Shown here: in pieces, positions 54,347 through 60,251 of the stretch
Position numbering within the stretch: the first letter of the stretch is position 1
How the letters are laid out: each line of letters opens with the position of its first letter
Assembly: GCF_001742305.1 (NCBI RefSeq)
Contig: NZ_MJAT01000002.1
Location: 62,001-126,000, forward strand
Length of the DNA stretch: 64,000 nt
From: Desulfuribacillus stibiiarsenatis
GTDB lineage: Bacteria > Bacillota > Bacilli > Desulfuribacillales > Desulfuribacillaceae
Reading direction: 5' to 3'
Notes under the pieces: model-generated
What the model saw: the letters and a program-made list of their open reading frames with translations, nothing else
Database searches by the model: none
What the model was told of the DNA's origin: nothing
Program-made: the position numbers and the translations under genes

Positions 54347-54610
54347 TTAACAACAATTAGGCCCACTTCCAGTGAACCAGCCTTTGATTACGGCATACGC
54401 TCAACCAACGCCCGACTCGACTTGTATTGCGCGTACAGGACAATTTTTATCACAAGCGCCACATTCGATGCAGTGATCCCTATACTCAACATATGCTTTT
54501 CTGTTTTGGATATTGATCACGCCATGGGGGCAGACCATTACACACAGCCCGCAACCAATACATTTGTCTACGTGAATCTCAATTTTTGCAACGTTTTTCA
54601 CATATTGCAT
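54347..54610 (-). CDS. hgcB: HgcB mercury-methylation ferredoxin, predicted selenoprotein
   Basis: Encodes 87 residues if TGA at 54401-54403 (codon 70) is read as selenocysteine. Two [4Fe-4S] motifs (CIGCGLCVMVCP at 17-28 and CIECGACDKNCP at 47-58) are followed by SGVG-U-AYAVIKGW and a C-terminal NCC. HgcB proteins are ferredoxins that reduce HgcA; they have a conserved Cys (Cys73 of Desulfovibrio ND132) after the second cluster and a terminal Cys pair, both important for methylation. Sec70 falls at the first, Cys86-Cys87 at the second. A SECIS-like hairpin lies at 54360-54378. Ordinary gene calling would stop at 69 residues. Follows hgcA by 79 nt. Confidence 0.8.
54360..54378 (-). other. Predicted SECIS element in hgcB
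   Basis: Downstream of the TGA, GGTTCAC and GTGGGCC form a 7-bp stem (two G-U pairs) around TGGAA. The loop starts 30 nt after TGA and has G at its second and third positions, within the spacing and loop rules for bacterial SECIS elements. Confidence 0.65.
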
Positions 54611-54689: not shown

Positions 54690-55841
54690 TTACAAGAGAA
54701 ACCCTAAAATCATAAGGACTATTGCGATGGCAGATGCAATAGCCATGGTCGGAACAGCAATTGTCGTTTCTTTTTTCACTCCTGATAGCGAAGTAAACGT
54801 TGTGCTCCCTGTAAAATTCATTGCTAAGAAGCTGATTATTGATGCCAACAAAAGCATGTTAGCAGCACCTACCGCGATCGATTGCTCGAAATGAAATACA
54901 TTAGCAAATGCAAACACTACCGCAGACCAAGATAATCCAAGAATGAGGGCTTTCACTGCAAACATCTGAAAGGGCAACACTGGTAGCAGCATAGGAAACG
55001 CTAATGTTCCAATCAATATAGCAATCAGATACGGTACTGTATTCATGAGTCCACTCTGCACCACTTGTATAATACTCGTATGATTCCCACCGAACCACTG
55101 TAGTAAGACAAAGAATATAATCACGTACGGTAAGTAATGAATCGCCATGAAAGTTTCGAGGGGCGCAACTGCCAAACGCTCTCTTAACGTAAAATTAACT
55201 CTTCGCATGTCTTCAGTGGCAACATTTTGATTGGATAAGAACATCGGAATATCCTTCGCATACACGGGTCCATAGATGACTTTAAATCCTGCGAACTTCG
55301 TAATCTCATGCGCAGTAATCCCTGGTGCTCCTAACTGTGGAACGATTATTGTGTTATGACTTACTAATTCCTTGATTTGATATTTTTGAATCCGGTAGAT
55401 GATTTCTTCTGTAGAAAATGTACCCTTTCCCGCAGCACACCAAACATTAACACCCTTTGTATCAATCACAAGCAACCATGTGTCAATACCGTCTAAGGAC
55501 ACCCTAACAATATCAATCGTCAATTTATAATTACATGTCACAAGCACAGGAGAATTGGCATCGGGATTGCCAATGGCATACAACCCCGGTGGAATCTTAA
55601 ATGTATCCCTAGCGATTCCAAGACGGGCCTTCAGATTCCAATAAGAATCTATCAGTCTTAACTCAGTACTTATCCTACGAATTGGACCTAAAGATGTTTC
55701 CACAGATCCTGTAATGGCATGTTGGATTCGCGCGTCTTCTACTATCTCTTCGATTTGATGAATCTTTTGAAACAGTCTTTCTTCTATACTAGAAGAACAT
55801 TTCTCTTCAATCACTCAGCAAGACTTCGGATTTCCGCCCAT
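54690..55841 (-). CDS. hgcA: HgcA mercury-methylation corrinoid protein, predicted selenoprotein
   Basis: The corrinoid-binding methyltransferase for Hg(II): a soluble domain with KGVNVWCAAGKGTF (the cap-helix motif, lower-axial-ligand Cys135), PGLYAIGNP and PQLGAPGITAHE, followed by five C-terminal membrane helices (about 230-250, 267-290, 294-316, 322-343, 360-383). The best start is ATG 55841, with AGGGGGTGG 7 nt upstream; from there codon 9 is TGA (55815-55817), giving MGGNPKSC-U-VIEEKC. The frame is otherwise open to 54690. The fallback start, GTG 55814, has no ribosome site. A SECIS-like hairpin follows the TGA. First gene of the hgcAB pair. Confidence 0.88.
55779..55797 (-). other. Predicted SECIS element in hgcA
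   Basis: After the TGA, TTCTTCT and AGAAGAA form a perfect 7-bp stem around AGTAT. The loop begins 25 nt after TGA and has G at position 2. Stem and loop lengths equal those of the hgcB element. Confidence 0.6.
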
Positions 55842-55931
55842 GACAATACCACCCCCTATCCATAAATCTTAATCTTATATTAGGATTAGCTAAATCATAC
55901 TAATAGTCTATTATCTCTGCAACAAAGTAGA

Positions 55932-55991
55932 ATAAAGAAAACTTGGCATTCGCCAAGCTTTAGCGAAGAGAATGCCTTAGTTGTCGTTACT
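55932..55991 (-). repeat. Terminator-like repeat, copy B
   Basis: A 60-nt element containing, on the minus strand, CTTGG and CCAAG around CGAATG followed by TTTTCTTTAT, and an alternative stem GGCATTC with GAATGCC. It starts in the HAD gene stop codon and is nearly identical to copy C at 60513-60574. It probably terminates the HAD gene upstream of hgcA. Confidence 0.7.

Positions 55992-58031: not shown

Positions 58032-60251
<2,220 letters not shown>

Follow-up and report, generated by a model that had tools for sequence, protein, structure and literature searches.

The window, i.e. the whole 64-kb stretch of DNA that was analysed, carries on its reverse strand the gene pair hgcA and hgcB, with the start of hgcB located 79 nt downstream of hgcA (Table 1). 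The hgcA product was identified as HgcA with the NCBIfam model NF040863 (397 bits, cut-off 275). The corrinoid-binding cap-helix Cys motif was present as NVWCAAGKG at residues 132-140 (expected N(V/I)WCAAGK), and the C-terminal membrane domain was represented by predicted helices at residues 219-382. Because a terminator-like hairpin separates the upstream HAD-hydrolase gene from hgcA, hgcAB probably forms a transcription unit of its own. No Rfam matches were obtained in the 64-kb window. A further gene near hgcAB (58032-60224, minus strand) encodes a 730-residue protein which by eye resembles the catalase-peroxidase KatG, an unexpected gene beside genes of strict anaerobes.

Table 1. Coordinates of the features at the hgcAB locus (positions within the window)
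Feature	Position	Strand	Basis
Ribosome-binding site of hgcA, AGGGGGTGG	55849..55857	-	Sequence; anti-SD duplex -10.6 kcal/mol
hgcA, 383 residues, ATG start, predicted Sec at residue 9	54690..55841	-	NF040863, alignment, N-terminal homology across the UGA
In-frame TGA, hgcA codon 9, read as Sec after Cys8	55815..55817	-	Aligned with Cys-Cys or Cys-Sec of homologues
Putative bacterial SECIS hairpin of hgcA, TTCTTCTA-GTA-TAGAAGAA, 8 pairs, GUA loop 25 nt past the UGA	55779..55797	-	
Terminator-like hairpin separating hgcA from the upstream HAD-hydrolase gene	55938..55961	-	Consensus match only; 2 found versus 1.5 expected
hgcB, 87 residues with UGA read through, predicted Sec70 (GVGU), C-terminal Cys-Cys	54347..54610	-	NF040864
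In-frame TGA, hgcB codon 70, at the strictly conserved position of ND132 Cys73	54401..54403	-	
Putative SECIS hairpin of hgcB, GGTTCACT-GGA-AGTGGGCC, loop at +30	54360..54378	-	

The 5' end of hgcA consists of AGGGGGTGG, a spacer of 7 nt, the start codon ATG at 55841-55839, the codons for MGGNPKSC, TGA at 55817-55815 and GTG at 55814, from which the frame is open to the stop codon TAA at 54692-54690. A sequence-only reading of this region had described the ribosome site of ATG 55841, with its 7 nt spacer, as excellent and that of GTG 55814 as lacking. Both statements were borne out by the anti-SD duplex energies, which were -10.6 kcal/mol for ATG 55841 and -0.5 kcal/mol for GTG 55814, and TGA was confirmed as codon 9, directly after a Cys codon. 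The start scan revealed no ribosome site at GTG 55814 and no good start downstream of the UGA in this hgcA. Residues 1-15 of HgcA were modelled by AlphaFold as a free tail with pLDDT values below 50, and the N-terminal Cys8-Sec9 tail is predicted to sit outside the folded domain.

Homologues were collected by an HgcA family search of 398 genomes of the phylum, resulting in 30 genomes with HgcA above the cut-off. An alignment-based search of the contigs of named genomes provided 80 further HgcA loci; a single-protein query of contigs gave none. The N-termini were obtained by reading back from the conserved domain, UGA being translated as U. An in-frame UGA was detected in 18 HgcA genes, 106-123 codons before NVWCAAGK, and followed directly on a Cys codon in 17 of them. 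The exception (L045) is a divergent HgcA of genome G286 with the order C-D-U, i.e. with UGA two residues past the Cys, and with a good hairpin; it may represent a shifted version of the motif. Nine of the genes belong to Bacillota (L038, L039, L043, which is the present gene, L044, L045 and L049-L052), and Bacillota with a Cys-Sec HgcA include Alkaliphilus peptidifermentans, Anaeromonas frigoriresistens and Peptoclostridium litorale. The other nine are from Desulfobacterota and related 'deltaproteobacterial' records (L065, L078, L096, L105, L113, L116, L118, L119 and L121). Two loci, L123 and L124, were dropped as Cys-Sec forms; in both, an upstream start is lacking and a good ribosome site lies downstream, so that their UGAs look like real stops.

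Comparison of the homologous N-termini, as had been proposed together with the upstream start, showed that Cys-Cys or Cys-Sec precedes the alignable domain in many HgcAs: among 103 distinct proteins, the tail was of the Cys-Cys type in 47, of the Sec form in 18 and of neither type in 38. Homologues which keep the GTG start and a ribosome site without the upstream codons were looked for and not found. HgcAs of, e.g., Desulfosporosinus are devoid of the N-terminal tail altogether; since many HgcAs are tail-less, the tail is inessential for HgcA in general and its role is accessory.

Ser-Cys-Sec was kept in most of the Bacillota forms despite the use of synonymous codons (TCT/TCC/TCA and TGC/TGT). 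Cys-Sec-Gly-Pro-(Lys/Arg) occurred in both groups, the Lys form in two phyla, with synonymously differing codons and with residues in frame on both sides of the UGA. For the HgcA loci whose first in-frame upstream stop is TGA, the position of this codon was compared with that of TGA in the other frames of the same stretches. TGA stood directly after a Cys codon in 19 of 30 in-frame cases versus 7 of 242 in the other two frames (Fisher P = 3e-16); the 19 include L123 and L124.

The published model of the bacterial SECIS element comprises an apical loop that is 3-9 nt long, has a G within the first two positions and is located 16-37 nt from the UGA, and a stem of 4-16 pairs with an energy of <= -7.5 kcal/mol (PMC13188914). 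SECIS-shaped hairpins were present in 18/18 UGA-containing hgcA genes; their loops lay at +18 to +25 and had a G within the first two bases. The stem sequences differed among the genes, e.g. GTCTGCC-TGA-GGCAGAC in L038 and AAGGCTC-AGGT-GAGCCTT in L096. The combined P value of the 18 genes (Fisher) was ~1e-9 with dinucleotide shuffles and 3e-7 with synonymous-codon shuffles, and no hairpin signal was obtained in 50 Cys-Cys HgcA homologues (P ~1 by both shuffles). The hairpin of the present hgcA has the SECIS shape, with 8 pairs and a 3-nt GUA loop at +25. Taken alone, it was weakly and not significantly better than shuffled sequences (0.06 dinucleotide, 0.12 synonymous). Its energy was -5.7 kcal/mol in isolation, which is above the published limit of -7.5, and -10.2 kcal/mol when the first 54 nt, counted from the UGA, were folded. 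As the hairpin is weak singly, its assignment as a SECIS element rests on the family; the analysis adds statistical support for a SECIS element of hgcA at this level.

The genome was also checked for the selenocysteine machinery, and selA (586 bits), selB (411 bits), selD (417 bits) and a tRNA-Sec gene (selC, 61 bits, confirmed by ARAGORN) were all present. In this genome, selC, selA and selD are located together. The selD gene (L048:10578-11618, contig C34) likewise has a UGA in frame (KAGUGC), behind which lies a hairpin with a GUA loop, and the ordinary ORF call for selD starts downstream of this UGA. Among the 30 genomes with HgcA, tRNA-Sec was found in 27, including all five with a UGA-form HgcA; the three genomes without tRNA-Sec (G367, G082 and G304) carry Cys-Cys HgcAs.

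The product of hgcB scored 113 bits against NF040864 with read-through of the UGA and 93.6 without, and passes the cut-off of 99 only with read-through. In HgcB of strain ND132, Cys73, the Cys of the GVGC motif, is essential, and function further requires one of its two C-terminal cysteines (PMC7305189). The GVGU motif was detected in HgcB of 10 other loci, 9 of which have an equally placed SECIS-like hairpin, and the hairpin loop was located at +29 or +30 in 10/11 UGA-containing loci. Judged from these sequence features, the HgcB adjoining HgcA is also a selenoprotein, with a GVG-Sec motif. In a Desulfamplus MAG (L127), HgcB has GVGU and HgcA is without Cys-Sec, and nine loci of the Desulfobacterota type show the reverse. 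The Sec positions of HgcA and HgcB vary independently.

In the HgcA tree, the closest clade in which the present HgcA was placed comprises six HgcAs, all of the Cys-Sec type (SH-aLRT 95). The tail type required 7 changes on the tree versus 16.8 with shuffled labels, and the Cys-Sec form occurs in two separate parts of the tree. No HgcA was found in 397 other sampled genomes of the same class, including G411, a member of the same family. The latter genome has the HAD-hydrolase gene in common with the present locus, and the neighbourhood beyond it differs. It is likely that hgcA was gained by transfer from Clostridia-like bacteria.

Very probably, translation of HgcA begins at ATG 55841 and selenocysteine is inserted at UGA codon 9. 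Decoding would be carried out by SelB and tRNA-Sec, aided by a small hairpin located some 17-35 nt past the codon, and the product would possess an N-terminal tail that is short and flexible and has a vicinal Cys8-Sec9 pair at its end. The sequence-only reading had suggested the upstream start with a Cys-Sec N-terminus and, with it, a second selenoprotein in the same two-gene operon; both proposals are supported by the homologues, the SECIS-like hairpins and the complete Sec machinery. The start of HgcA is thereby moved by nine residues, and a residue is added which is invisible to ordinary annotation.

The same reading had offered an 8-residue leader peptide as an alternative: MGGNPKSC would be translated, synthesis would stop at the UGA, and a restart at the abutting GTG 55814 would yield an HgcA of 374 residues. 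The arrangement TGAGTG, with an open GTG frame, is found here and in L044 and L045, and GTG follows the TGA only in these three genes, where the valine fits a conserved U-V-(V/I/T). However, the other 15 UGA homologues carry GGC, CCC, AGT, GCG etc. after the UGA, and in five of the relatives (L039, L050, L078, L113 and L119) the stretch from the UGA to the conserved domain contains no ATG, GTG or TTG. As GTG 55814 lacks a ribosome site (-0.5 kcal/mol), is rare at this place in relatives and has no possible equivalent in five of them, reinitiation was considered highly improbable; it also leaves unexplained why a Cys precedes the UGA and why the hairpins and the Cys-Cys homologues exist. The least probable explanation is that translation truly stops at the UGA or that this codon is a disabling mutation, with hgcA being a pseudogene or expressed from a weak downstream start. 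A standard gene call would indeed begin at GTG 55814, and L123 and L124 show that real UGA stops after Cys occur by chance, in those loci together with a good ribosome site further downstream. However, the remainder of HgcA is intact and conserved, hgcB independently has a UGA, with its own hairpin, where an essential Cys is known, and no good start exists downstream in the present gene.

With HgcA read as a selenoprotein, a function of its tail can be proposed. Replacement of sulfur by selenium would strengthen mercury binding and make the pair a better nucleophile or redox pair. From this chemistry, a role of the tail in mercury handling was inferred: with somewhat better than even chances, it acts as a soft-metal ligand for Hg(II) or CH3Hg+, which it would deliver to the corrinoid site or take over from there, in concert with Sec70 and the C-terminal Cys pair of HgcB. 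The HgcA tail would hand over Hg(II) or CH3Hg+ in either direction, and selenium would improve affinity and exchange. It appears rather unlikely that Cys8-Sec9 and Sec70 of HgcB serve as a selenol relay that carries mercury or a different soft metal or metalloid, that HgcAB as a double selenoprotein consequently differs from the Cys enzyme in rate, substrate or product release, and that its presence in one lineage of a class in which HgcA is otherwise absent marks a recent gain. The Cys-Sec tail, or its Cys-Cys counterpart, is a candidate functional element of mercury methylation that is overlooked by surveys anchored on the conserved domain.

Selenoprotein forms of both proteins are listed in a 2026 review (PMC13188914), HgcA with the motif CU (NF040863; WP_250697417.1) and HgcB with the motif GVGU (NF040864; WP_250697400.1). 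Haft & Gwadz 2023 (J Bacteriol 205:e00259-22) is credited there for both forms, with an earlier survey also named for that of HgcA, and some hgcA and hgcB homologues were reported elsewhere as possible selenoproteins (PMC11588087). Both kinds of protein are therefore known, as predictions. The Cys-only and tail-less HgcAs of the present sample differ from the HgcA described here in lacking its Cys-Sec tail. HgcA of Pseudodesulfovibrio mercurii ND132, likened here by description, resembles it in having a membrane domain and a corrinoid domain that bears the NVWCAAGK cap helix. The HgcB of this locus has the same motif as the GVGU form of the review, with the Sec codon at 54403-54401, and no difference was found. 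The present HgcA agrees with the CU form in family and in the single Sec directly after Cys, and no difference in kind was found; it is almost certainly a Sec protein by the criteria of sequence, and a well-supported further example of the Cys-Sec HgcAs already predicted in other bacteria.
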